Shown in pieces: positions 3-24,119 of a stretch of DNA of 25,311 nucleotides. Within the stretch, counting starts at the first letter, position 1; each line of letters starts with the position of its first letter. The notes beneath the pieces were generated by a model. It saw only the letters and a list, made by a program, of their open reading frames with translations. It was not told the origin of the DNA and ran no database searches. Origin of the DNA: a virus; the IMG/VR virus record IMGVR_UViG_3300027710_000121, positions 1-25,311 of that record; one strand, 5' to 3'. Position numbers and translations under genes: made by a program.

Positions 3-1241
3 TCTAAACACCTTGATATGAAAGATATAAGTGATAAGAACTTATTCCGTAATGATAGTTTCGATATTGGTGATGCAAATAACAATCCATTAATTGTAAC
101 AATACCCGGTGTGTTTAGTAGTGGTGACATGACTAAATCAAATAAGGTAGTTGCTTTTGAAGTAAGTGTTGGCGACCAAAATCAAAATATTTTTAAAAGT
201 GTGGGATTAGACCAATCATCAGTAAAAAATACCACAGAATCATTTGCGGTACTTGAAAATTTAGGTCGTTCTGAAAATGGTGCAGGTGTACAACAAGTCG
301 ACACAGGTTTATTTGACATATATAGAACACAATCATATACATGTGATGTTACCTGTATGGGTAATGTGATGATTCAGCCTACTATGTATTTCTTTTTAAA
401 AAATGTACCGATGTTCAGAGGTTCATATTGGATTACTGAGGTGACACATAACATTAAAAATAATTCAATCACCACATCATTTAAAGGTACAAGAATACCA
501 TATGCATCCCTACCAAATCCAAAAGATTCGTTTATGGCAAGTTATCGTGCGCTGTTTGATAAAATTACAGCTAAAGCACAAGCAAGACAAAATCAATCAG
601 ATAGTATGATTGCCGGTCCAAAAGCAAATGAAACTACAATTAACACACCTCAAGGTAATTTAACAATTGACACTGGTGATTCAAAAAACATTATCAACGG
701 TGAAAAAATTGTTAATGAGGCGGGTATGAATGAGTTTGGCGTTAGATACAATGGTTATAATGGTGAGAAGTATATTCAAAAAGTAACATTTAATGGTGTT
801 GAATACTTTAGAGCAATAGCGGTGAAAATGGGTAGCTCAAATTATGAAATCGACCCCGATATTAAAATGAATATTTTTAGTTACACCAAAGATGTTGTGG
901 TAACAGGTGTAACCGGTAATGCGATAGTTTGGGCAGAAGTGCAAAAATTTGCAGCAAAATCGGATTTTTATTCATTAAGATTTGATTTACCCAATGTTCA
1001 ATATAACTCACCAGGTAATCATATATTATCATCAACAGTTACATTCTTCAATCCCAAAAAAATGGAAAAGAAGGTTACAATTACACCATTAACCGGCGTT
1101 CCTATAATTACGGCTGAGGATGTAAAAGGACCAATTAATGTGGGACCTAATGTTACAGGATATGGTGTAGCATTATCTAACGAATTGGCAAGAAAATTAG
1201 GTATTAGTGACGGCGATGTTGTTTATTTTCAAATGGAATAA
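3..1241 (+). CDS. Tail/baseplate hub-like structural protein, 5' truncated
   Basis: The reading frame is open to the window edge: codons before the ATG at 18 read S-K-H-L-D without a stop. The gene therefore probably begins upstream, although the ATG at 18 is a possible start giving 407 aa. Residues about 95-165 (numbered from that ATG) contain a tract with Y-T-C-D-V, an aromatic patch, then F-R-G-S-Y-W-I-T-E-V-T-H-N-I and S-F-K-G-T-R. This resembles the strand pattern of hub barrels of the gp27/gpD/VgrG type, in which a 'G-x-Y-x-I-x-x-V-x-H' segment is common. The last 25 residues carry A-L-S-N-E-L-A-R-K-L-G-I-S-D-G-D-V-V, which recalls the end of double-psi-type beta-barrels. It lies first in a run of structural genes, which fits a virion role. 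The hub assignment is inference from pattern; 'virion structural protein' is the safer label. Confidence 0.5.
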   Translation, partial: SKHLDMKDISDKNLFRNDSFDIGDANNNPLIVTIPGVFSSGDMTKSNKVVAFEVSVGDQNQNIFKSVGLDQSSVKNTTESFAVLENLGRSENGAGVQQVDTGLFDIYRTQSYTCDVTCMGNVMIQPTMYFFLKNVPMFRGSYWITEVTHNIKNNSITTSFKGTRIPYASLPNPKDSFMASYRALFDKITAKAQARQNQSDSMIAGPKANETTINTPQGNLTIDTGDSKNIINGEKIVNEAGMNEFGVRYNGYNGEKYIQKVTFNGVEYFRAIAVKMGSSNYEIDPDIKMNIFSYTKDVVVTGVTGNAIVWAEVQKFAAKSDFYSLRFDLPNVQYNSPGNHILSSTVTFFNPKKMEKKVTITPLTGVPIITAEDVKGPINVGPNVTGYGVALSNELARKLGISDGDVVYFQME

Positions 1242-1488: not shown

Positions 1489-2148
1489 ATGTTAGAAAAC
1501 AAACTACAAGAAGAACTGAATCGTTATAATGCGATTAACAAATACGCTAAGAAAATGATTATGGAGCAAGAAGCCCCACTTCCACCGTTACCGGCAGACC
1601 CCGCATTAGATGCAGCGGCAGCACCGGCAGATGCGGCGGGAGCTGAAATGCCACCAATGGATGCAGGTGCGGCACCGGTACCTATGGATGCAGCAGCAGC
1701 GCCTGCAATGGGTGATACTGAAGAAATTGATATAACAGACTTAGTTAATATGACTAAGAGTCTTAAAAAAGATATTGAAGGTTCACAAAATGATAACTCA
1801 ACAGTTATCAGTAAGATGGATGATGTATTTACCAAACTTGATGATTTAGCTTCTAAATTATCTGAAATGGATACGTTAGTTCAAAAAATTGAGCAATTAG
1901 GTGTTGAAGTAAAACAAATGAAACCTGAAACTCCACAAGAAAAATTGGAAATGCGTTCATTAGATTCATATCCATTTAATCAAAAGCCAACTGATTTCTT
2001 CTCACAAAAACAAGAAGAAATGAGAGCAAGTGGTAAGAACGAGTACGTTTTAACTAAAGACGATGTAAATGATTTTACACCGGAAACATTAAGAGATACG
2101 TTTAACGACACAGGAGAAGAAGAAAATGAAAATGAATTTAAATTCTAA
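1489..2148 (+). CDS. Coiled-coil protein with Ala/Pro-rich linker, probable structural or assembly protein
   Basis: The 219-aa protein has three parts. The N-terminal ~28 residues form a charged helix. Residues about 29-74 are a low-complexity Ala/Pro/Asp/Met linker with alternating A-A-A, A-P and P-M-D units. Residues about 83-145 show heptad-like spacing of I, L, V and M and are a likely coiled coil. The tail is acidic and ends E-F-K-F. The linker is encoded by locally GC-rich DNA (about 1570-1710), which stands out in this AT-rich genome. There is no signal peptide or membrane helix. Its 3' end overlaps the start of the Dps-like gene by 23 nt, implying translational coupling. I do not recognise a named family. 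A scaffold, chaperone or virion accessory role is plausible from architecture only. Confidence 0.6.
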   Translation: MLENKLQEELNRYNAINKYAKKMIMEQEAPLPPLPADPALDAAAAPADAAGAEMPPMDAGAAPVPMDAAAAPAMGDTEEIDITDLVNMTKSLKKDIEGSQNDNSTVISKMDDVFTKLDDLASKLSEMDTLVQKIEQLGVEVKQMKPETPQEKLEMRSLDSYPFNQKPTDFFSQKQEEMRASGKNEYVLTKDDVNDFTPETLRDTFNDTGEEENENEFKF

Positions 2149-2506
2149 TGTAAATTTCCTAATAGGATTACATACTCAATTAAAAATATTTCATTGGCAA
2201 ACTAAAGGTTTTTCAAGACATAATGCTTTTGCAGATACAAGAGATGCACTTGAAGATTTGATGGACGAATTTGTTGAACAAGCAATGGGTCAATATGGTA
2301 GATTTCAGTTAGACGATGAAACAAATACAATTGAATTAGTAAATATCGGAGATGTAAAGCCCGAAGAGATGTTAGAAACCGTATGTCAATCTTTTGTTCA
2401 ATGGACTGAGAGTATTGATGAAAAAGATACTAATCTTTTGAATTTACGAGACGAGATGCTTGGGTTATTCCAAAAATTAAAATATTTACTTACATTAAAC
2501 AAATAA
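2126..2506 (+). CDS. Dps/ferritin-like four-helix protein
   Basis: The 126-aa protein opens with a helix reading L-H-T-Q-L-K-I-F-H-W-Q-T-K-G, the hallmark of Dps-type mini-ferritins. Residues H23, H32, D47 and E51 line up with the ferroxidase residues of Listeria Dps (H31, H43, D58, E62). The H-to-D (+15) and H-to-E (+19) spacings are identical, and only the first H-H loop is 3 residues shorter. Known Dps proteins oxidise and store iron and protect DNA; related phage proteins of unknown function (the DUF5856 type) share this fold. At 126 aa it is shorter than the usual 150-170 aa. The start at 2126 overlaps the previous gene; a second in-frame ATG at 2132 is equally possible. It sits in a virion gene cluster, so it may be a structural four-helix protein rather than an enzyme. 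Confidence 0.7.
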   Translation: MKMNLNSNVNFLIGLHTQLKIFHWQTKGFSRHNAFADTRDALEDLMDEFVEQAMGQYGRFQLDDETNTIELVNIGDVKPEEMLETVCQSFVQWTESIDEKDTNLLNLRDEMLGLFQKLKYLLTLNK

Positions 2507-2524: not shown

Positions 2525-3415
2525 ATGATATCAGGGTCAGCGGCCACTACGGGGTCAACACAAACGAGAACAACATTATCATATGTTAATAATTTAGTAA
2601 CCGGTGCAACATCATCAGGTTCATATCACATATACGTACCAAACGACTATATGGACGATGATATGATGGACGATTTAATTGGTTATGGATATAGAGTAAC
2701 CAAGAGAAATACTCTTATGGGTACTAATATGGATTATTTAATTAATTGGGCACCTAATCCGGTTGCACCAAGTCCAACACCAACAACATCTCCGACTCGT
2801 ACTCCAACACCAACAATAACACCAACGGGTACACCTGCGGCTACAGTTACTCCAACACGTAGTGCGACTCCAACACCGACACCTACGATGACATCAACAT
2901 CAACACCAACAGTTACACCAACTAAAACAGTAACGCCTACGGCAAGTATAACTTCGACAGTTACACCAACACCAACCTCAAGCCCATTGGCTGCAAGTGT
3001 TACACCAAGTGTTACACCAACACGTACACCAACACCAACACCAACCTCAAGCCCATTGGCTGCAAGTGTTACACCAAGTGTTACACCAACACGTACACCA
3101 ACACCATCTTTTCAACCTTTTCAATCATATAACTACAGTATTAGCGCAACAGATTTAGCTGATGCAACAGGTAATACAGGTTCTTTAGTAGGCTATAATA
3201 ACAATGTTGTTGTTGTAGTAACAAACGGTTACAATTGTGGAAATACAACAGAACGTAACTTCACATATGCGTTTGGTGCTGCGGGACCGTCATACGTTTC
3301 ATGGTTAATCTCAAGAAAAACGGATATACCAGTTTTAGGATATTATAAAAATAACGGATTGGTTACTACGGGACTTGTCTCTACTCAAACAATTAACTCA
3401 TCAGTTCCTTGTTAA
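2525..3415 (+). CDS. Thr-Pro repeat stalk protein, candidate fibre/adhesin (296 aa)
   Basis: The architecture has three parts. Residues 1-80 form a small N-terminal domain with an acidic D-Y-M-D-D-D-M-M-D-D stretch. Residues about 81-194 are a low-complexity Thr/Pro stalk built of T-P-T, S-V-T-P and T-R-T-P units. Residues 195-296 form a C-terminal domain rich in N, G, Y and V with cysteines at N-C-G and at the very C-terminus. The stalk contains a perfect 69-bp (23-codon) tandem duplication. The same stalk style recurs in two larger genes at 20658 and 24146. There is no signal peptide, consistent with a virion protein rather than a host secreted protein. The gene is followed by a strong terminator at 3443. 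The start ATG has an A-rich leader and no Shine-Dalgarno sequence. A fibre, head-decoration or adhesion role is inferred from architecture and position. Confidence 0.6.
   Translation: MISGSAATTGSTQTRTTLSYVNNLVTGATSSGSYHIYVPNDYMDDDMMDDLIGYGYRVTKRNTLMGTNMDYLINWAPNPVAPSPTPTTSPTRTPTPTITPTGTPAATVTPTRSATPTPTPTMTSTSTPTVTPTKTVTPTASITSTVTPTPTSSPLAASVTPSVTPTRTPTPTPTSSPLAASVTPSVTPTRTPTPSFQPFQSYNYSISATDLADATGNTGSLVGYNNNVVVVVTNGYNCGNTTERNFTYAFGAAGPSYVSWLISRKTDIPVLGYYKNNGLVTTGLVSTQTINSSVPC
2765..3106 (+). repeat. Thr-Pro low-complexity repeat tract of the 296-aa protein
   Basis: The DNA is built of degenerate ACA-CCA/ACT-CCA type units. It is rich in A and C and nearly free of G on the + strand, and it encodes alternating Thr-Pro with S, V, R or A inserts. 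Synonymous codons vary between most units, so the tract is old, except for the exact 69-bp duplication inside it. Confidence 0.9.
2963..3106 (+). repeat. Perfect 69-bp tandem duplication
   Basis: Positions 2963-3037 match 3032-3106 base for base, giving a period of 69 bp with 75 matching nt. The unit encodes T-S-S-P-L-A-A-S-V-T-P-S-V-T-P followed by T-R-T-P-T-P-T-P, 23 codons, so the frame is kept. Identity even at synonymous positions indicates recent duplication by slippage or unequal recombination. Confidence 0.95.
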
Positions 3416-3507: not shown

Positions 3508-4380
3508 ATGTCTACATTTGATGCAGTACTAGCGCAGTACGAAAAAAACAAAAACGCCACAAGTGGCAACGCAAATCGAGTGTCCTCTGAGGACCGCATG
3601 AAGAAGTATTTCACAACCGTATTACCGAAAGGTTCAAGAGGTGAAGAAAAACGTATTCGTATTCTACCTACAAAAGATGGTTCTTCGCCATTTGTTGAGG
3701 TATACTTCCACGAAGTACAGGTGGATGGAAAGTGGGTTAAATTATTTGACCCTAAGCAAGAAGGAAAACGTTCTCCATTAAACGAGATTCATGATGAATT
3801 AATGATGACAGGTGTTGAGTCTGACCGTGAGTTAGCTCGTCAATATCGTTCTCGTAAATTCTACATTGTGAAAGTTATCGACCGTGATAACGAGAATGAT
3901 GGTGTTAAGTTTTGGAGATTTAAACACAACGCAAAAGGAGATGGTATCTTAGATAAGATTATTCCAATCTTCCGTAACAAAGGTGATATCACAAGTATTA
4001 CTGAAGGTCGTGACTTAATCTTATCATTAACCTTAGCTAAGTCAGGTAATGGTAAAGAGTACACAACAATTAATTCAGTAATTCCTGAAGATAAAGGACC
4101 TTTACACACCGATGAGAATATCGGTAGCACATGGGCTAAAGATGAGTTAATGTGGTCAGATGTTTATTCTAAGAAAGGTGAAGACTACTTAGACATGGTT
4201 GCAAAAGGTGAGGTACCACGTTGGGATTCTAACTCAAATAAGTGGGTATCTAACTCAACAGGTGAAGAAACGGTTGGACAACAACCATCAGCACCTTCAG
4301 CTCCATCGGCACCTGCTTCGGCTCCCGTAATTGAGGACCCACAAGCGGATGATGATATTGATGAAGAATTACCATTCTAA
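3508..4380 (+). CDS. 32: gp32-like single-stranded DNA-binding protein
   Basis: The protein coats ssDNA during replication, recombination and repair and recruits partner proteins. The length (290 aa) is close to T4 gp32 (301 aa). The N-terminus is basic and helical, for self-association. An OB-fold core follows, with R-I-R-I-L-P, F-V-E-V-Y-F-H and R-K-F-Y-I-V-K-V-I-D motifs and K-F-W-R-F-K. Next come a Ser/Ala/Pro linker (about residues 260-276) and an acidic tail ending D-D-D-I-D-E-E-L-P-F. The protein has no cysteine at all, so the zinc ribbon of T4 gp32 is missing. The last residues resemble the acidic tip of bacterial SSB rather than the T4 tail. It is first in the replication block, after a terminator and promoter-like site, and is followed by a hairpin, which fits high separate expression. 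Confidence 0.88.
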   Translation: MSTFDAVLAQYEKNKNATSGNANRVSSEDRMKKYFTTVLPKGSRGEEKRIRILPTKDGSSPFVEVYFHEVQVDGKWVKLFDPKQEGKRSPLNEIHDELMMTGVESDRELARQYRSRKFYIVKVIDRDNENDGVKFWRFKHNAKGDGILDKIIPIFRNKGDITSITEGRDLILSLTLAKSGNGKEYTTINSVIPEDKGPLHTDENIGSTWAKDELMWSDVYSKKGEDYLDMVAKGEVPRWDSNSNKWVSNSTGEETVGQQPSAPSAPSAPASAPVIEDPQADDDIDEELPF

Positions 4381-4386
4381 TATCAC

Positions 4387-4408
4387 GGGGTGGTGAAATA
4401 TCCACCCC
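4387..4408 (+). terminator. GC-rich hairpin between ssb and uvsX, attenuator or partial terminator
   Basis: GGGGTGG at 4387-4393 pairs perfectly with CCACCCC at 4402-4408 across an 8-nt loop. It is followed by only ATTTTA, so the T tract is weak. It lies 6 nt after the gp32-like stop. It could dampen transcription into uvsX or stabilise the 3' end of the ssb mRNA. Confidence 0.6.
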
Positions 4409-4426
4409 ATTTTAAAAACAAAACAT

Positions 4427-5467
4427 ATGGGAATTAAAAAACAAGATTTTTCAAGCATTGCGAGTGTTGTTAACAAATATTCAACTAAAACCACATATAA
4501 GGCTGACAGGTTCTTAGATTTGGGAGATGCTTTCTTGGATGCAACGGGTATTCCCGGTCCTGCTATTGGTCATATCAATATGTTGTTAGGACATTCAGAT
4601 ACAGGTAAGACAACCGCATTATTAGGTGCTGCTGCTGATGGTATCAAAAAAGGAATGTTACCTGTGTTTATTATCACAGAACAAAAGTTTGATTTTGGAC
4701 ACGCAAGGATTATGGGTATCCCTATTGAACAAGAAGTGGATGCCGAAACTGGTGAAGTGACATATTCAGGTCCTTACATTTTTAAAAATGATTTTGATTT
4801 CATCGAACAAATCACAGACTTTATGAATGATTTGATGGATGCTCAAGACAAAGGTACTATACCTTACGATTTATTATTCCTTTGGGATTCTGTGGGTTCA
4901 ATTCCTTGCAAGATGACATACGAAGGTAAGGGTGGTAAACAACACAACGCTGCGGCTTTAGCTGACAAAATTGGTATGGGTATCAATCAACGTATTTCAG
5001 GTTCTCGTCGTTCTGATAAACCTCACACAAATACATTGATTATTGTTAACCAACCTTGGGTTGAGTTACCGGACAACATCTATGGACAACCAAAAATTAA
5101 AGCAAAAGGTGGTGAGGCAATTTATTTGAACTCAACATTGGTTTTCTTATTTGGTAATCAAAAGAATGCCGGTACAACTAAAATACCAATCACAAAAAAC
5201 AAAAGAACTATTAGTGTGGCTACGAGAAGTAAAATCTCTGTAATGAAAAACCACGTTAATGGTATTGCTTTTGCTGATGGTAAGATTATGGTTACGCCAC
5301 ACGGATTCTTAAGAGCAAAAGAGGCGGCAGAAGAAAAAATTTCACGTGAACAATATGTTAAGGATAACTTAGAGTATATTAGCTCATTGTTTGGTGAAAA
5401 GGTATCTGACTTAAAAGATATCAAATTCGATGATGTGGCAGATGCTACGGATTCAGACGAAGAATAG
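4427..5467 (+). CDS. uvsX: UvsX-like RecA-family recombinase
   Basis: This is an ATP-dependent strand-exchange protein that drives phage recombination and recombination-primed replication. The RecA core is clear. Walker A is G-H-S-D-T-G-K-T-T at residues 55-63, after the strand I-N-M-L-L. A Walker B strand, L-L-F-L-W-D-S-V-G-S, has Asp at 154. The L-I-I-V-N-Q-P-W segment follows at about 204-211, then K-A-K-G-G-E-A-I at about 225-232. The length (346 aa) is near T4 UvsX (391 aa). The C-terminus is acidic, D-A-T-D-S-D-E-E. The start is preceded by an A-rich leader without Shine-Dalgarno. It sits directly after gp32, its known functional partner, and before the RNase H gene. The intact frame shows no intron or intein. 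Confidence 0.92.
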   Translation: MGIKKQDFSSIASVVNKYSTKTTYKADRFLDLGDAFLDATGIPGPAIGHINMLLGHSDTGKTTALLGAAADGIKKGMLPVFIITEQKFDFGHARIMGIPIEQEVDAETGEVTYSGPYIFKNDFDFIEQITDFMNDLMDAQDKGTIPYDLLFLWDSVGSIPCKMTYEGKGGKQHNAAALADKIGMGINQRISGSRRSDKPHTNTLIIVNQPWVELPDNIYGQPKIKAKGGEAIYLNSTLVFLFGNQKNAGTTKIPITKNKRTISVATRSKISVMKNHVNGIAFADGKIMVTPHGFLRAKEAAEEKISREQYVKDNLEYISSLFGEKVSDLKDIKFDDVADATDSDEE

Positions 5468-5490
5468 TTTCACATTTTAAATTAAAATAA

Positions 5491-6510
5491 ATGTCCGTTT
5501 TACTTGTCGATGGTGACAATTTATTAACAATCGGATTTTACGGGTGTAAAAACTTCTTTTATAAGGGGAATCATATTGGGGGGATATATCATTTCCTCAA
5601 TACCCTTAGAAGGTCTTTTGAAGAATATCACTTAGATAAGATTGTTGTATTTTGGGACGGACATGAAGGTTCATCATCACGTAGAAAAGTTTATCATCTA
5701 TATAAAGAAAATAGAAAAAGTAGACTTCGTAGTGATGAAGAATTAAATTCATACAATTATCAAAGAGAAAGAGTTAAACAATACCTTGAGGAGCTATTTG
5801 TTCGCCAAGGAGAGTACGAATTCTGCGAAACCGATGATTGTATCGCTTACTACACAAAGAACTCACCAGAGGAAAAGAAAATAGTCTATTCCTCAGATGG
5901 AGACTTAACTCAATTAGTTTCCGAAAACACAAAAATTTATAACCCATCGCATCATAAACTTTATAGTGTCAATGATACTATCAAGTATAGTCATGAAGAT
6001 GTCTTAATTGAAAATGTTAAAATTATAAAGATATTATGCGGCGACCCATCCGATAATATCTCCGGTATTAAAAATATGGGTATCAAACGATTGATTACTC
6101 TCTTCCCTGAAGTACAAACAAAAAAACTATCTTTAGATGACATTATACAAAAAAGCAATGTTATCTTCGAACAAGATAAAAATAATAAACTAATAACCAA
6201 TTTATTAACTGGTGTAACAAAACACGGTGTGTTTGGTGATGAGTTTTTTGAAATTAACAATAAAATTGTTAACTTAGATGAACCGTTATTAACCGAAGAT
6301 GCTAAGGGAAATATAGACCAGTTAATTGGGGAGAATCTTGACTCAGAAGGAAGGTCATACAAGAACGCAATCAAATTAATGACGGAAGATGGAATTAATA
6401 ATGTCCTACCAAAATCAGATGATGCATTTGCCAAATTCTTAAATCCTTTCTTAAGATTAACAAGAAAAGAAAAAAATAAAAGAATTATTAAAATCAAAAA
6501 CTATGAGTAA
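5491..6510 (+). CDS. rnh: RNase H / FEN-type 5'-3' exonuclease (T4 Rnh-like)
   Basis: The enzyme removes RNA primers and 5' flaps during lagging-strand synthesis. Metal-binding acids of the PIN/FEN fold are visible: L-V-D-G-D-N (D7, D9), V-F-W-D-G (D56), E-T-D-D-C (D115, D116) and S-S-D-G-D (D136, D138). The basic bridge around S-R-R-K and Y-K-E-N-R (residues 63-75) is present. The helix-3-turn-helix signature begins at G-D-P-S-D-N-I-S-G-I-K (residues 184-194) and continues through G-I-K-R. The length (339 aa) is slightly above T4 Rnh (305 aa). The last 8 nt overlap the next gene in an ATGAGTAA arrangement. The position between uvsX and the helicase matches a replication role. Confidence 0.88.
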   Translation: MSVLLVDGDNLLTIGFYGCKNFFYKGNHIGGIYHFLNTLRRSFEEYHLDKIVVFWDGHEGSSSRRKVYHLYKENRKSRLRSDEELNSYNYQRERVKQYLEELFVRQGEYEFCETDDCIAYYTKNSPEEKKIVYSSDGDLTQLVSENTKIYNPSHHKLYSVNDTIKYSHEDVLIENVKIIKILCGDPSDNISGIKNMGIKRLITLFPEVQTKKLSLDDIIQKSNVIFEQDKNNKLITNLLTGVTKHGVFGDEFFEINNKIVNLDEPLLTEDAKGNIDQLIGENLDSEGRSYKNAIKLMTEDGINNVLPKSDDAFAKFLNPFLRLTRKEKNKRIIKIKNYE

Positions 6511-8351: not shown

Positions 8352-9329
8352 ATGACTGAAAAAATACTACAAGACAACCCAGGACGGTTTGTCCTCTTCC
8401 CTATCGAACATAACGATATATGGAAATACTATAAACAACAAGAAGCATGTTTTTGGACTGCTGAAGAAATCGATTTGGCTCAAGATATTCAAGATTGGGA
8501 TTACAAATTGAATGATGATGAAAAACATTTTGTAAAACACATCTTAGCTTTCTTTGCGGCATCTGATGGCATTGTAAATGAAAACATTGCGTTGAACTTT
8601 GTGAATGAAGTACAATATACGGAAGCAAAGATGTTTTATGGTTTCCAAATCATGATGGAAAATATCCATAGTGAAACGTATTCGTTGTTAATTGATTCAT
8701 ATATCAAAGACAAAGAAGAACAATTAAATTTATTTAATGCAATTGAAACTATACCGGCAATCAAAAAGAAAGCTGAGTGGGCTATGAGATGGATTGAGAA
8801 AGGAACATTTACTGAACGACTTATTGCATTTGCGGCTGTTGAAGGTATTTTCTTTTCAGGTTCATTCTGTTCAATCTTTTGGCTAAAGAAACGTGGGTTA
8901 ATGCCGGGTTTAACATTTTCTAATGAGTTGATTTCACGTGACGAAGGAATGCACTGTGACTTTGCTTGCCATTTATCTAACAATCACATTCAAAATAAAT
9001 TATCAGAAGATAAGATTAAAGAAATTATCGTTAGTGCATTAGCAATTGAAAAGGAATTTATCTTGGAAGCACTACCGGTTCGTTTAATTGGTATGAACTC
9101 TGATTTAATGTCACAGTATCTTGAGTTTGTTACAGATAGATTATTAACAGCATTAGGATGTTCAAAGGTATACAATTCGGAAAATCCTTTTGATTTTATG
9201 CAGAACATTGCATTGCAAGGTAAAACTAACTTCTTTGAGAAACGCGTTGCTGAGTATCAAAAAGCGGGAGTTAATAATAAAAGTGATGAAAGCATTGAAG
9301 ATGCATTTAACGGAGATATAGATTTTTAA
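8352..9329 (+). CDS. nrdB: Ribonucleotide reductase small (R2) subunit, class Ia
   Basis: The subunit carries the diferric-tyrosyl radical used to reduce ribonucleotides to dNTPs. All expected ligands are visible: D72, E103, H106, E164, E198 and H201. The radical tyrosine Y110 has the E-x-x-H-x-x-x-Y spacing (E-N-I-H-S-E-T-Y). R-D-E-G-M-H-C-D and [10 protein letters not shown] are family signatures. The C-terminus, N-G-D-I-D-F, is the short peptide that docks on the large subunit. The sequence style is closer to eukaryotic/viral R2 than to E. coli R2. It is complete at 325 aa, without the introns found in T4 nrdB. It lies 3 nt after the helicase and 3 nt before nrdA; the order is B then A. 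Confidence 0.95.
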
Positions 9330-9332
9330 AAT

Positions 9333-11756
9333 ATGAAAGTAAAAAAACGCGACGGTTCCCTTGAGGAAATGAGATATGACAAGATTACTAAACGGATTAG
9401 TATCTTATGTCACGATTTAAATATGGAATACATTGACCCTACCTATGTTACATTAAAAGTAACACAAGGTATCTATGATGGTATTTCAACAATTGAATTA
9501 GATAAATTGGCGGCAGAGACTGCGGTTGCAATGACCACAACACACCCTGATTATTCTAAGTTGGCCGGTAGAATTGAAGTATCAAGTTTACACAAGTCAA
9601 CACCAAAAAAGTTTTCACAGTGCATTAGAGAATTACATTCATTTATTGAGCCAAGAACAGGAAAGCAGTCATCATTAATTGATACGCAACTTTATAAGTT
9701 TGTCCTTGAAAATAGAGAAACTATTGATGCTGCAATTGTTATGGATAGAGATTTTGATTTCGATTATTTTGGTATCAAAACTTTAGAACGTTCTTATCTT
9801 ATTAAGATTGGACAAAAAATTGTAGAAAGACCACAATACCTATATATGAGAGTCGCGTTAGGTATTTGTAACTTTAATCTTGAAGAAGGTTTGAGAATCT
9901 ATCACGATTTGTCAAAACATCTTTATACACACGCAACACCAACATTATTTAATGCAGGAACTCCAAGACCACAGATGTCTTCTTGTTTCTTAATTGGTAA
10001 CAAAGGTGATGACATTAACGGACTATTTGATACATTAGGTGATGTTGCAAAGATTTCTAAGTGGGCGGGTGGTATTGGATTACACGTACATGATGTTCGT
10101 GCTAAAGGTTCATATATTAAGGGAACCGGTGGAGAATCTGATGGTTTATTACCAATGATGAAAACTTATAATGAAGTTGCTCGTTGGATTAACCAAGGTG
10201 GTAAGCGTAAAGGTTCATTTGCGGTATATTTGGAACCATGGCATGCAGATGTTATGGAGTTCATTGAATTAAGAAAGAACCATGGTAAGGAAGAAATGAG
10301 AGCAAGAGATTTGTTCTTGGCTTTATGGACTCCCGATTTGTTTATGAAACGTGTTGAAGAAGACGGTAATTGGACATTGTTCTCACCTGATGAAGCACCG
10401 GGTTTATCTGATGTATATGATACACCGGAAGACAAGAAATTCACAGAGTTATATGAATCATACGAACAACAAGGTTTGGGTCGTCAAACAATCAAAGCAA
10501 GAAAGTTAATGGATGCAATCCTAACTGCGCAGATTGAGACCGGTGTTCCATACATGTTATATAAGGATGCTGCGAACTATAAATCAAATCAAAAGAACTT
10601 GGGTACTATTAAGTCATCTAACTTATGTACTGAAATCATTGAGTATAGCTCACCAACAGAGCAAGCTGTTTGTAATTTAGCATCGATTGCATTACCAAAG
10701 TATATTGTTGACGAGGAATTTGACCATCAGTTATTATATGATGCAACATATCAAATTGTTAAGAACTTAAACAATGTAATTGATTTAAACTTTTATCCAA
10801 CTGCGGAGACAAAGTTATCAAACTTTAAACACAGACCGGTTGGTTTAGGTGTTCAAGGTTTAGCTGACGTTTTTTGTATCTTAGGATTACCATTTGAATC
10901 AGATGACGCAGATAAATTACAAACAGATATTTTCGAAACAATTTATTTTGCGGCATTAACGTCTTCAAAAGATTTGGCAAAATTACACGGTGCGTATGAG
11001 TCAATTGATGGGTCACCAATTTCACGTGGAGAATTTCAATATCAAATGTGGGGTAAAACAGATGAAGATACTTCAGGTCGTTGGGATTGGAAATCATTAC
11101 GTAAAGAAGTTGTAAACAATGGTGTTAGAAACTCATTATTAGTTGCACCGATGCCAACAGCATCTACAGCACAAATTTTGGGTAACAACGAATGTTTTGA
11201 ACCATTTACAACAAACTTATATGCAAGAAGAACATTGGGTGGTGAGTTTATTGTAATTAACCAACACTTAGTTAAAGATTTATTGAAGTTTGATTTATGG
11301 AACGAAGAGATTAAAAATAAAATCATTATGGAAAATGGTTCTATTCAAAACATCCCTGAGATTCCAACTGAATTGAAAGAAATCTATAAAACAGTATGGG
11401 AGATGTCACAAAAGAAAATATTGAACATGGCAGCAAACCGTAGTGTTTATATTGACCAATCTCAATCAATGAACTTATTTATTAGTGGGGTGAATAAAGC
11501 TAAGTTATTGGCGGCACACTTACACGGATGGAAGTTGGGGTTAAAAACGGGTATGTACTACTTACGTTCTACATCTGCTGTCGACGCTATGAAGGGATTA
11601 GGTATTGATACTTCAACAGTTAAGCCTGCAGAACCATCACAAGTTTTTCCAACACCCAATAATAATTCACTGATTAGTGAAAGCACACCGGAGGTTGAGA
11701 TGACTATTGAAAGACCGTCTGACTCACCATTTGACTGTGAAGGTTGTGGTTCTTGA
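9333..11756 (+). CDS. nrdA: Ribonucleotide reductase large (R1) subunit, class Ia
   Basis: This is the catalytic and allosteric subunit for making dNTPs, paired with NrdB. An N-terminal ATP-cone begins K-V-K-K-R-D-G-S (residues 2-9). Active-site redox cysteines are C218 (M-S-S-C-F-L) and C447 (A-V-C-N-L-A-S). The thiyl radical site is C432 with N430 and E434 (S-N-L-C-T-E-I). The numbering is almost that of eukaryotic R1 (218, 429, 444). The S-V-Y-I-D-Q-S-Q-S-M-N block carries the radical-transfer region. The tail ends F-D-C-E-G-C-G-S, giving the C802/C805 pair for re-reduction by thioredoxin or glutaredoxin. The N-terminal cone suggests dATP control. The 807-aa frame is intact. It is the last gene of the block and is followed by a strong terminator. 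Confidence 0.95.
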   Translation: MKVKKRDGSLEEMRYDKITKRISILCHDLNMEYIDPTYVTLKVTQGIYDGISTIELDKLAAETAVAMTTTHPDYSKLAGRIEVSSLHKSTPKKFSQCIRELHSFIEPRTGKQSSLIDTQLYKFVLENRETIDAAIVMDRDFDFDYFGIKTLERSYLIKIGQKIVERPQYLYMRVALGICNFNLEEGLRIYHDLSKHLYTHATPTLFNAGTPRPQMSSCFLIGNKGDDINGLFDTLGDVAKISKWAGGIGLHVHDVRAKGSYIKGTGGESDGLLPMMKTYNEVARWINQGGKRKGSFAVYLEPWHADVMEFIELRKNHGKEEMRARDLFLALWTPDLFMKRVEEDGNWTLFSPDEAPGLSDVYDTPEDKKFTELYESYEQQGLGRQTIKARKLMDAILTAQIETGVPYMLYKDAANYKSNQKNLGTIKSSNLCTEIIEYSSPTEQAVCNLASIALPKYIVDEEFDHQLLYDATYQIVKNLNNVIDLNFYPTAETKLSNFKHRPVGLGVQGLADVFCILGLPFESDDADKLQTDIFETIYFAALTSSKDLAKLHGAYESIDGSPISRGEFQYQMWGKTDEDTSGRWDWKSLRKEVVNNGVRNSLLVAPMPTASTAQILGNNECFEPFTTNLYARRTLGGEFIVINQHLVKDLLKFDLWNEEIKNKIIMENGSIQNIPEIPTELKEIYKTVWEMSQKKILNMAANRSVYIDQSQSMNLFISGVNKAKLLAAHLHGWKLGLKTGMYYLRSTSAVDAMKGLGIDTSTVKPAEPSQVFPTPNNNSLISESTPEVEMTIERPSDSPFDCEGCGS

Positions 11757-20657: not shown

Positions 20658-23600
20658 ATGAAAAAAAATAAGTATACCATTAGACGTAAAAACATTTTAA
20701 ATGTTAGACTGGTCTCTTTGACCGGACAGACTTGGTATGATATTAGTGATTACGAAACTCTTATTCCTTGGAGTGGCAATACTGGAGTTATGCCAACAGG
20801 CTCAACACCTTTTAATGGATATGTTGTTTATAATGTTTCAGGTAATACAGGTAACACTTTAACTCAAAATTATTATAAATGGGGTATACCAACAGATAAC
20901 ACATGGAATTTAATGGTTGGTGCACCAATAACTAATTTAACTTCTACATCATTAAGAAACCCAACAGATGAATACGGTGCTTTAATTACCGGCACGACAT
21001 TATATAATACCGGAACAACATTTAATATCGGATATTATGAATGGGTCAGTTCGTGGAATTTATTTAATCAAACATCGGGCGAAACATATAATGAAATTAA
21101 TGGCGTATTAAACGGTAAAATCTACGATAACCAACAACTTCCATTATACTTAGAAGCGACCGCAGATGAAATGGGTTCCATGGTTGCATTTGATGGTGCG
21201 GTTGGTGTTGAATCAACACAAAATCAAATTAATGCAAACTTTATTTACGAAGTTGATTGTAATAAAGTTACTGTAATTAATACAACCAATCTAAATAATA
21301 TTGCGGGTGTCGGTGAAATTATATTTACGGTAGATTGGGGTGATGGAACCACATCGCCAATTGGCGTTGAAGGTATTTGTTCGGGAATTAATTGTCATAA
21401 AGCATTTAAAACATATACAACTAATGGTAGTAAAAACATTACCGTTAGATTAGATTCACCTTGGACTAATAATACATTATCTAAGTCGACAATGATTGAT
21501 TGCAATGCTTTAGTGTCACCAACACCGCCGGCAACAAGAACACCAACACCATCAATTACTGCAACACATACATTAACTCCAACATCAACACCAACAAATA
21601 CTGTTACACCATCTATGACTCGTACACCAAGACCTACGGTTACGAGAACACCAACAATGACACCATCAATGACACCAACGTTATCTATTGGTGCCACACC
21701 ATCAATGACGCCATCAATAACACCAACAATTCTTTGTGTGTTTGAAATTGATATTGATGTAATATCAATATCGCAAGGTGATGGATGTTCAACATTATAT
21801 ACGGGCGGATATTCACCGGTACCACAAGAATTTGTTTTAGATATGTTACCTGCTGCGGGTACATTTACGTTTAATTTCACCGGTGGTACAATAACAGATA
21901 CATTTAACATATATTACCCTGAGAACGTATTATTAACAGGATACACATCAGTATCTAATGTGGCGGGTGGTCCATACGTATTATCTGTTGATGGTTCATC
22001 AGATAAAGTAAAAGTGGTTGTTAACCCTGTTGATAATGGTCAAATTGAAACATTGTGGTCATTTATTGTTGGTTGTATCGTGCCGATTACACCAACTCCA
22101 ACACCTACAAGAACTATTACCCCAACTGCGACGCCAACGGCAACTCCAACCATTACACCAACACATACGGTTACACCAACATCAACGCCTACAAAAACAT
22201 TAACACCAACTCCATCTGTAACAAGGAATTATCTATGTAGTGATGTTGTGACAGGTAAGTATTCACCTGTTGTTCAAACATTCTTTATTAGTGCCGGTTC
22301 GTTACCGGGCGTTAGTGTATTTGAATATGGTACGTATACGATTAATGATACGTTTCAATTATATTACCCATCAACAAGTTTAACGCCAACTTCAACATTT
22401 AGCGGAACTGGTTTTGGTAATATTACCGTGACCGGTTCTACATTAGCCGACAATATTATAAAAATTGTAATTGACGGTACCTCAGATGTTGAAACACAAT
22501 GGTATTTTAATTTATATTGTGCAAATGTTTCTGTTTCGCCATCGGCAACAAAAACAGTAACACCTACTCCAACAATTACACCTACTAATACCAAAACATT
22601 AACACCTACACCTACTAAAACACCGGGTGCAAGTTTATCACCAACACCTACAAGAACACCGGCTTCTACTGTAACTCCAACAAGTACGGTTACTAATACA
22701 CCTACAATCACACCAACTTCGACGATTACGCCGACCAACACACCATCTAATACAGGAACACCGGCGGTCACAAGAACACCGACACGTACCGCTACACCAA
22801 CAGCAACAATTTCACCTACACCAACAATTACTAAAACTCCAACAACAAGTGTAACGCCATCACCTGGTTCATCATCCTCGCCTACACCTACAATAACTCC
22901 AACTAATACGATTACACCAACGCGCACTGTTACGCCAACAAATACCGTTACACCAACAGCTACAGTTACCCCAACAAACACGGTTACACCAACTCCTTCG
23001 GTAACCGCAACAATAACGCCAACATCGACAATTACACCATCGTCGACAGCAACAATAACACCAACAAGTACATCAACAGTAACACCAACTGCGAGTGTCA
23101 CCGCAACCATAACCCCTACGAGCACTATTACACCAACACCAACGGCAACTGAAACGCCATCAGTAAGCGACACGCCAACCCCTACACCGACATCAACGAT
23201 TACGCCAACATCAAGCGTAACACCTACCGTTACGCCAACAAACACCATTACGCCAACAATCACACCTACCAATACAGTTACACCAACTGAAACAGTAACC
23301 CCTACACCGTCTGTAACTAATAGTGAAACACCTACACCTACCCCAACAGAAACGGTTACACCTACAGGCACACCAACCCCAACAGCGACCGAAACACCGA
23401 CAATGACCGCAACACCAAGTGTTACGCCGTCCGAGACAATTACGCCAACACCAACAGAAACACCAACGCCAACACCGTCTGTAACGTCTTCTTATGGTTC
23501 TTCACCAACACCAACGGAAACTATTACACCTACCCCAACATTAACGCCAACAGGTACACCAACCCCAAGTGTAACCACAACAGTTACACCAACCAATACC

Positions 23601-24119
23601 ATTACCCCCACCAACACACCAACAACAACTGAGAGTGAGACACCTACTCCAACTCCAACAAGCACGGTTACACCAACAAATACTGTAACACCAACACCTT
23701 CTGAGTCAGAAACTCCAACTCCGACACCGACAAGTACGGTTACACCAACAAATACTATAACACCAACTGAGACACCAACTCAAACTGCAACACCAACAAT
23801 TACCCCAACAAATACAATTACACCAACGGAGACCGTTACTCCTACATCAACGATTACACCAACTCAAACTGCAACACCATCTGTTACACCAACCAATACT
23901 ATTACCCCAACCACCACACCAACAATAACAGAAAGTGAAACACCGACGCCTACACCAACCAATACGATTACACCAACAAGTACAATTACACCAACAAGTA
24001 CAATTACACCAACACCTACCAATACACCAATATCAACACAATCCGCACCACCATGCGACATCACATATAATGTGGTACCGTTTGATATGACTTGTGATAT
24101 TACATATAATGTAATATAA
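20658..24119 (+). CDS. Giant Thr-Pro stalk protein with PKD-like and duplicated domains, candidate tail fibre
   Basis: The 1153-aa protein is modular. Residues 1-~285 form an N-terminal region with a PKD-like segment (F-T-V-D-W-G-D-G-T-T at 223-232, then K-A-F-K-T-Y-T and I-T-V-R-L). Linker 1 spans about 287-358. Globular domain A spans about 359-475. Linker 2 spans about 476-523. Globular domain B spans about 524-626 and is homologous to A. Linker 3 is a very long Thr/Pro/Ser/Val tract, about 627-1132. The C-terminus has two copies of C-D-I-T-Y-N-V. A and B share Y-S-P-V-x-Q, I-x-D-T-F-x-x-Y-Y-P and a C-terminal W-x-F plus Cys. There is no signal peptide. The position after baseplate genes suggests a tail-fibre or whisker role, inferred only. 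The linkers could be glycosylated on Thr, but no Bacteroidota D-S/T-x glycosylation motif is frequent in them. Confidence 0.65.
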   Translation: MKKNKYTIRRKNILNVRLVSLTGQTWYDISDYETLIPWSGNTGVMPTGSTPFNGYVVYNVSGNTGNTLTQNYYKWGIPTDNTWNLMVGAPITNLTSTSLRNPTDEYGALITGTTLYNTGTTFNIGYYEWVSSWNLFNQTSGETYNEINGVLNGKIYDNQQLPLYLEATADEMGSMVAFDGAVGVESTQNQINANFIYEVDCNKVTVINTTNLNNIAGVGEIIFTVDWGDGTTSPIGVEGICSGINCHKAFKTYTTNGSKNITVRLDSPWTNNTLSKSTMIDCNALVSPTPPATRTPTPSITATHTLTPTSTPTNTVTPSMTRTPRPTVTRTPTMTPSMTPTLSIGATPSMTPSITPTILCVFEIDIDVISISQGDGCSTLYTGGYSPVPQEFVLDMLPAAGTFTFNFTGGTITDTFNIYYPENVLLTGYTSVSNVAGGPYVLSVDGSSDKVKVVVNPVDNGQIETLWSFIVGCIVPITPTPTPTRTITPTATPTATPTITPTHTVTPTSTPTKTLTPTPSVTRNYLCSDVVTGKYSPVVQTFFISAGSLPGVSVFEYGTYTINDTFQLYYPSTSLTPTSTFSGTGFGNITVTGSTLADNIIKIVIDGTSDVETQWYFNLYCANVSVSPSATKTVTPTPTITPTNTKTLTPTPTKTPGASLSPTPTRTPASTVTPTSTVTNTPTITPTSTITPTNTPSNTGTPAVTRTPTRTATPTATISPTPTITKTPTTSVTPSPGSSSSPTPTITPTNTITPTRTVTPTNTVTPTATVTPTNTVTPTPSVTATITPTSTITPSSTATITPTSTSTVTPTASVTATITPTSTITPTPTATETPSVSDTPTPTPTSTITPTSSVTPTVTPTNTITPTITPTNTVTPTETVTPTPSVTNSETPTPTPTETVTPTGTPTPTATETPTMTATPSVTPSETITPTPTETPTPTPSVTSSYGSSPTPTETITPTPTLTPTGTPTPSVTTTVTPTNTITPTNTPTTTESETPTPTPTSTVTPTNTVTPTPSESETPTPTPTSTVTPTNTITPTETPTQTATPTITPTNTITPTETVTPTSTITPTQTATPSVTPTNTITPTTTPTITESETPTPTPTNTITPTSTITPTSTITPTPTNTPISTQSAPPCDITYNVVPFDMTCDITYNVI
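21516..21731 (+). repeat. Thr-Pro linker 1 of the 1153-aa protein
   Basis: A degenerate ACA-CCA-type tract of 72 codons. It encodes T-P-T, T-x-T-P and M-T-P-S-M-T-P units, with occasional Arg. Confidence 0.9.
21732..22518 (+). repeat. Two homologous domains (A and B) with a Thr-Pro linker between
   Basis: Domain A (21732-22082) and domain B (22227-about 22518) flank linker 2 (22083-22226). They share Y-S-P-V, then I-T-D-T-F-N-I-Y-Y-P against I-N-D-T-F-Q-L-Y-Y-P, a K-V-V/K-I-V-I strand, and an E-T-L-W-S-F / E-T-Q-W-Y-F ending followed by Cys. The DNA is well diverged, so this is an old duplication. Confidence 0.75.
22536..24053 (+). repeat. Long Thr-Pro linker 3, about 506 residues
   Basis: A continuous tract of about 1.5 kb of degenerate (T-x)-(T/S)-P repeats. 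The recurring higher-order unit is roughly [11 protein letters not shown]-x-T. An S-E-T-P-T-P-T-P-T block recurs several times (near 23325, 23640, 23700 and 23935). All four Thr codons and all four Pro codons are mixed. An exact 18-nt motif, ACAAGTACAATTACACCA, is tandem near 23975-24010. Confidence 0.9.

Follow-up and report, generated by a model that had tools for sequence, protein, structure and literature searches.

A minimal DUF5856 protein with the Dps metal-ligand register in a phage genome fragment, and its candidate role in iron oxidation

Gene neighbourhood and the encoded protein

The window, by which we mean the whole stretch of 25,311 nucleotides analysed here (positions 1 to 25,311 of IMG/VR record IMGVR_UViG_3300027710_000121), encodes a small Dps-like protein between a probable tail gene and a set of replication genes. 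The features that bear on this gene are listed below.

18..1241 (+): C-terminal part of a probable tail/baseplate protein, the window beginning inside the gene (phrog_52 tail protein, E 0.0017; weak fold matches)
1489..2148 (+): coiled-coil-like protein whose gene runs into the 5' end of the mini-ferritin gene and immediately precedes it (-1) in 37 of the 136 relative loci
2112..2116 (+): AGGAG, ribosome-binding-site-like, read from the sequence 5' of the mini-ferritin ATG
2126..2506 (+): DUF5856 / Dps-like mini-ferritin, 126 aa (PF19174, E 3.1e-16; phrog_858, E 9.4e-14; AlphaFold model)
2192..2194 (+): codon of H23, which aligns with E. coli Dps H51
2219..2221 (+): codon of H32, which aligns with E. 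coli Dps H63
2231..2233 (+): codon of A36, at the position of the E. coli Dps ligand D67; not conserved
2264..2266 (+): codon of D47, which aligns with E. coli Dps D78
2276..2278 (+): codon of E51, which aligns with E. coli Dps E82
2450..2452 (+): codon of D109, an invariant acidic residue in helix 4
3508..4380 (+): gp32-type single-strand DNA-binding protein (PF08804, E 1.7e-15)
8352..9329 (+): class Ia ribonucleotide reductase small subunit NrdB (PF00268, E 9.3e-112), 5.8 kb downstream

The mini-ferritin ORF begins with ATG, and its first 23 bases are shared with the ORF before it. The AlphaFold model of the protein encoded at 18..1241 had a pLDDT of 64 and gave weak matches to tail-hub folds, and a search of the PDB with its profile returned no match. 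A 67-aa ORF separates this gene from the coiled-coil-like gene, whose product and its relatives gave no informative match in family searches. Downstream, the gene order is a Pro/Thr-repeat protein, gp32, a UvsX-like recombinase, an exonuclease, a DnaB-like helicase, NrdB, NrdA (starting at 9333) and baseplate wedge genes; the class Ia reductase that the original prediction had noted about 6 kb downstream is thus present. The same prediction had described the gene as lying inside a virion gene cluster, which holds only in part: the probable tail gene lies upstream, whereas replication genes follow downstream and the prohead protease of a 269-kb close relative is encoded about 50 kb from the mini-ferritin gene. 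The window gives no evidence of a head-module location. Two window proteins contain long Pro/Thr-rich repeats (TPTPT), encoded at 2525-3415 and 20658-24119, and may belong to a fibre or appendage; the long ORFs on the reverse strand across 20658-24119 are likely by-products of the repeat.

Residues 23, 32, 47 and 51 of the 126-aa translation were confirmed as H, H, D and E with spacings of +9, +15 and +19, as had been predicted by comparison with the Dps ferroxidase site, and the predicted shortening of the first loop was seen as a 3-residue gap in the alignment with E. coli Dps. When the protein was shuffled 200,000 times, the pattern H-x8-H-x14-D-x3-E arose in 59 of the shuffled sequences (297 of 200,000 when the first gap was relaxed to 7-12 residues), and one of the 132 stop-to-stop frames of at least 50 aa in the window carries it. 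Since it is rare by both measures, the motif exceeds chance. The protein is acidic, with a pI of 4.67 and a net charge of -9, its N-terminus (MKMNLNSN) lacks a basic tail, and the median pI over 132 relatives is 4.86. No targeting peptide or maturation cleavage site was seen in its sequence.

Family assignment, ligand register and predicted fold

The protein matched DUF5856 (PF19174) over the full model (1-94 of 94) with 60.6 bits against a cut-off of 34.6. Scores for PF00210 Ferritin (16.2 against 24.5) and for the NCBIfam Dps family NF006975 (17.8 against 114) were below their cut-offs. PHROG 858 bears the label 'starvation-inducible transcriptional regulator', which is identical to the RefSeq label of T4 rI.-1, itself a strong DUF5856 member (5e-33) whose gene adjoins rI; the Dps link is therefore already implied by automatic names. 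T4 RI.-1 shares with the window protein the whole-domain match and the residues H23, H32, D47, E51, G55 and D109. It differs in having only about 24 per cent identity, in lacking W24 and in carrying an N-terminal MKFSDF extension, and its gene sits in the rI operon, away from tail or head genes.

Alignment with a single Dps sequence, that of E. coli, using hhalign paired H51 with H23, H63 with H32, D78 with D47 and E82 with E51 (E 0.005, probability 7 per cent). A PDB sequence search with a profile of 39 relatives recovered Dps proteins in the same register, with a best E of 0.0017. Of its best nine rows, eight carried the names Dps, Dlp, MrgA-type or neutrophil-activating protein and one was CAIP, a Helicobacter relative of Dps-type proteins, and the printed alignments place H23, H32, D47 and E51 on the Dps ligands.

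An AlphaFold monomer model was built from an alignment of 39 window-and-locus sequences. It reached a pLDDT of 91.5 and a pTM of 0.85, with predicted helices at 5-25, 29-57, 79-95 and 102-123. Foldseek returned 454 matches in the PDB, none of them at E <= 0.001; the best 50 of the 454 were all Dps proteins, with a top E of 0.019 and a TM of about 0.70. Using VIA-align, the best Z was 13.4, for M. smegmatis Dps2 over 126 residues, and other ferritin-like bundles came close (YciE 12.9, YciF 12.1), values of Z below about 13 being possibly generic for helical bundles. The fold scores of this model do not tell Dps from other ferritin-like bundles, and because of this overlap the sequence register is the discriminating evidence for Dps.

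Like the cellular Dps proteins (E. coli Dps, B. anthracis Dlp-1, B. subtilis MrgA and M. smegmatis Dps2), the window protein has a four-helix fold in its predicted structure, an HW pair ending helix 1 and the H/H/D/E register. It is shorter than E. coli Dps (126 against 167 aa, with a first loop of 9 against 12 residues), lacks the fifth ligand D67, is acidic without a basic tail, a feature that is not universal among Dps, and falls under the Ferritin and Dps cut-offs. The description of the gene product as a Dps-like mini-ferritin thus holds for the Dps-related fold and the conserved H/H/D/E set and does not extend to Dps proper. Judged by sequence and model, the protein belongs to DUF5856 and is a pared-down representative, confined to viruses, of the Dps/ferritin superfamily, and not a canonical Dps.

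Dps proteins have a short BC helix between helices 2 and 3, at the dimer interface. The monomer model contained no helix of four or more residues between positions 58 and 78, which lie between helices 2 and 3, although pairing of subunits might order one. The ferroxidase site of Dps is shared between two subunits, and by analogy a distance of about 20 A between H23/H32 and D47/E51 is to be expected inside one chain. The original prediction had proposed that a structure placing these residues apart would refute it; since the Dps site spans two subunits, their separation in one chain is a poor test.

Conservation, gene contexts and candidate head targeting

Relatives were collected in two ways, viral contigs being scanned with patterns and phage records searched by tblastn, which gave 146 sequences, of which 133 were distinct (at least 100 aa) and fell into 54 clusters at 70 per cent identity. 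Only six positions were invariant in all 133, namely H23, H32, D47, E51, G55 and D109, although this invariance is partly built in because the scan patterns include H23 and, in one case, also D47/E51. Four of the six are Dps ligands, while W24 and nearly everything else varies. The isolates found by tblastn, which are free of this bias, agree (14 were read, out of 881 records in one search and 4 in another). They take in 11 sequences from T4, Ackermannviridae, Thanatos-1 and other phages, at 21-33 per cent identity, and two 0.63-Mb phages, all of which keep the ligand set. The ligands are also kept as the His-His spacing grows from 9 residues in the window protein up to 13 in jumbo phages. Position 36, where Dps has its fifth ligand (Asp, four after the second His), was G in 40, D in 6, A in 4 and N in 3 of the 54 representatives, and is A in the window protein. 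D109 might be a candidate replacement for the lost fifth carboxylate, or else a pore-lining residue.

Homologues that had lost the H/D/E set while keeping the fold, the other refutation originally proposed, were looked for among these relatives, and all 133 retained the set. Three entries under 100 aa (L169, L202 and L050) were left out of this count. Two of them, L169 and L202, are short through their start calls, and their full frames carry all four ligand residues. The third (L050, 3819-4028) has an internal deletion, real or an assembly error, that takes out the D47/E51 stretch and keeps the remainder.

Gene contexts were surveyed in 136 relative loci, four genes to each side, redundant contigs having been partly removed. 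A gp32-type gene lay one to four genes after the mini-ferritin gene in 40 loci and at -3 in one more (41/136). An S77 head protease and a gp23 capsid gene occupied -2/-1 in 14 of the 136 loci, one of them shifted by one gene. In a further type of context, seen in 20 loci, the gene was surrounded by a siphovirus portal/cement/capsid module, with a lambda-type portal upstream in 17, a common +1 protein without assigned identity in all 20, cement at +2 in 12 and capsid at +3 in 13. None of the virion probes used was detected within four genes in 67 of the 136 loci. A Fe/Mn superoxide dismutase gene lay at -1 or -2 in three of the 136, all on phage-like or jumbo-phage contigs (L150 35-529, L151 3572-4276 and L152 4312-5004). 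A HesB/IscA-like gene, recognised by eye and without a family match, was seen in three loci, including L150 and L152. At one further locus (L144) the mini-ferritin (3564-4064) and the product of the next gene (4069-5772) share the N-terminal tag MAENxNxxxPxxDxGxGAxY, which is a hint only; an N-terminal motif common to the L146 protein and L175 neighbours was set aside as too thin.

The Chryseobacterium phages MA9V-1 and MA9V-2 carry the DUF5856 domain within a protein annotated as prohead core serine protease. The MA9V-1 protein (L052 6648-10691, 1347 aa) is polyprotein-like, its assigned parts being the protease and the mini-ferritin; the N-terminal S77 match scored 29.1 bits (cut-off 27), and the DUF5856 segment reached 50.9 (cut-off 34.6). 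A scan with the MA9V domain alone found no relative. The MA9V-1 protein contains 15 [ILVAYF]NES motifs, against a shuffle mean of 0.17 (maximum 3 in 2,000), and the MA9V-2 protein 12, against 0.20 expected. The DUF5856 segment of MA9V-1 is flanked by YANE|A and TLNE|S, and in MA9V-2 the start boundary reads YVSE|A; the TLNE|S boundary coincides with the end of free-standing relatives (YLLTLE, YLLTLK). The MA9V-1 capsid protein contains similar sequences around residues 26 (FINE|A) and 64 (FLNE|S), and a further five MA9V-1 proteins start with short peptides such as MKNFFSFINE|A. T4 gp21 cuts after (I/L)xE, and T4 internal proteins carry such tags. Published work on the MA9V-1 virion, in the available part of the article, is limited to SDS-PAGE (PMC10537231).

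In two 0.63-Mb phage records the N-terminal stretch of the mini-ferritin ends in INE followed by a linker, and thus looks capsid-targeting-like. Many ORFs of one 634-kb phage (LR745206; L238, L239) start with MKxLKxFNE-like peptides, as if capsid-targeted. Near its mini-ferritin gene, 'NE' was present in the first 25 residues of 14 of 56 ORFs, against 4 of 56 for residues 26-50; since a distant region also has such peptides frequently (11 of 66 against 6 of 66), they are not special to the mini-ferritin locus. The mini-ferritin is probably carried in the head of the Chryseobacterium phages, of the 0.63-Mb phages and of those phages that have the gene in a head module. We infer packaging from gene context and candidate cleavage or targeting sequences, and regard it as attractive in some lineages and as no more than possible for the window phage.

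Proposed function, alternatives and distribution

We favour, with a probability of roughly 60 per cent, the reading of the window protein as an iron-oxidising or iron-sequestering mini-ferritin that would protect phage DNA from Fenton chemistry by means of a predicted two-subunit H/H/D/E site. In a pair of subunits, Fe(II) would be bound by H23 and H32 from one chain together with D47 and E51 from its partner, D109 perhaps standing in for the lost fifth Dps ligand. The Fe(II) would then be oxidised or sequestered with peroxide or oxygen, and hydroxyl radicals would thereby be kept from forming beside the phage DNA, whether the place of action in the window phage is the infected cell or the virion. 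This reading is supported by the fold model, the register, the invariance of the ligands, the superoxide dismutase context and the head contexts of some relatives. Against it stand the fold scores shared with other ferritin-like bundles, the PF00210 score under its cut-off, the lost fifth ligand, the helix missing between helices 2 and 3 of the model, the 67 loci in which no virion probe was detected, the deletion in L050, and the mild lysis-inhibition effect and laboratory dispensability of T4 rI.-1.

Ligand invariance and the neighbouring superoxide dismutase genes also bear on a structural reuse of the fold, as a virion or scaffold four-helix bundle in which a metal (e.g. zinc or a single iron) merely joins subunits and no ferroxidase turnover takes place. 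Such reuse would suit a gene that occurs within head modules and inside a protease polyprotein, and a site without the fifth ferroxidase ligand. We consider it unlikely, however, as the residues retained are exactly the Dps metal ligands, superoxide dismutase adjoins in three loci and the T4-type members lie outside head modules. Conservation speaks similarly on lysis timing, for which DUF5856 would modulate lysis inhibition by contacting other proteins, its metal site being structural or regulatory. The T4 member, next to rI, is listed as a lysis-inhibition accessory gene whose over-expression slightly lengthens the lysis-inhibited period, according to the accessible portion of a review (PMC6832632). 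Sublines of T4 are described as differing by a frameshift in rI.-1 in the available text of another report (PMC8573959), and the gene is therefore dispensable in the laboratory. Against a general role of this kind, no neighbouring rI was noticed for those aquatic or Chryseobacterium relatives whose loci were read by eye, and phage RaK2 has an RI.-1 relative without recognised RI, RI.1, RIII or T in what is accessible of its genome description (PMC3622015). Protein contacts, moreover, need no fixed H/H/D/E while W24 and nearly all else vary, and we regard an accessory function in lysis timing as improbable for the family.

The original prediction had also suggested that the protein could store or donate iron for the class Ia reductase encoded 6 kb downstream. 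This found little support: although NrdB and NrdA are encoded in the window, and the long contigs of L151 and L152 have NrdB too, an NrdB homologue was present in only 4 of the 12 records carrying a mini-ferritin (fragments may hide some) and within four genes of it in none of the 136 loci, making such a donor very unlikely. Compaction or coating of DNA in the manner of Dps, with no iron chemistry, could draw on the superfamily resemblance and on the nearby gp32-type genes, yet the acidity of the protein and of its relatives and the missing basic tail make it scarcely credible, and we rejected it on charge.

The ferroxidase-type reading can be extended to the family as a whole, more tentatively. 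DUF5856 could be a stripped-down virus ferroxidase that in several lineages has become head cargo, by way of a targeting peptide or of a protease polyprotein from which it would be freed at NE|S sites, and that would guard the packaged genome from Fenton damage or be delivered with it, T4 RI.-1 being the laboratory member; we hold this broader version to be possible rather than probable. To our knowledge, no antioxidant role has been ascribed to the known T4 internal head proteins. If the protein does travel in the capsid, phages would bring their own antioxidant. The proposal supplies a concrete biochemical hypothesis, ferroxidase activity, for a common phage protein lacking an assigned function, and it can be tested directly in a laboratory phage, T4, which carries a member of the family.

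Phage-encoded proteins of Dps type have been described elsewhere. Protection from oxidative damage was proposed for the Dps proteins of gut phages of the Gratiaviridae (PMC8008677) and of Lactobacillus phages (PMC6669764), and a Campylobacter phage Dps protein has been tabulated (PMC2853527). The available parts of these papers report them as relatives of bacterial Dps and make no mention of DUF5856 or RI.-1; the comparison with the window protein is one of published descriptions. In the part of the open-licence literature that was consulted, we found no paper that ascribes ferroxidase activity or a capsid location to RI.-1 or DUF5856.

DUF5856 relatives were detected in 602 phage records at E <= 0.01, mostly T4-like, and by pattern scan in at least 577 environmental viral stretches. 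A scan of 84,980 GTDB species genomes with two short patterns, which divergent forms can escape, found one relative, on a 5.8-kb MAG contig with phage-like genes (L150), and a plasmid scan found none; recent capture from a host was dropped on these counts. Closer structural matches than those in the PDB came from viral structure predictions (BFVD), among them a protein of Pithovirus LCPAC404 (A0A481ZC29; TM 0.83/0.91, 30 per cent identity) and one of Fadolivirus (A0A7D3V608); both resemble the short form, with identities of 30-31 per cent. The DUF5856 family may extend to giant viruses.
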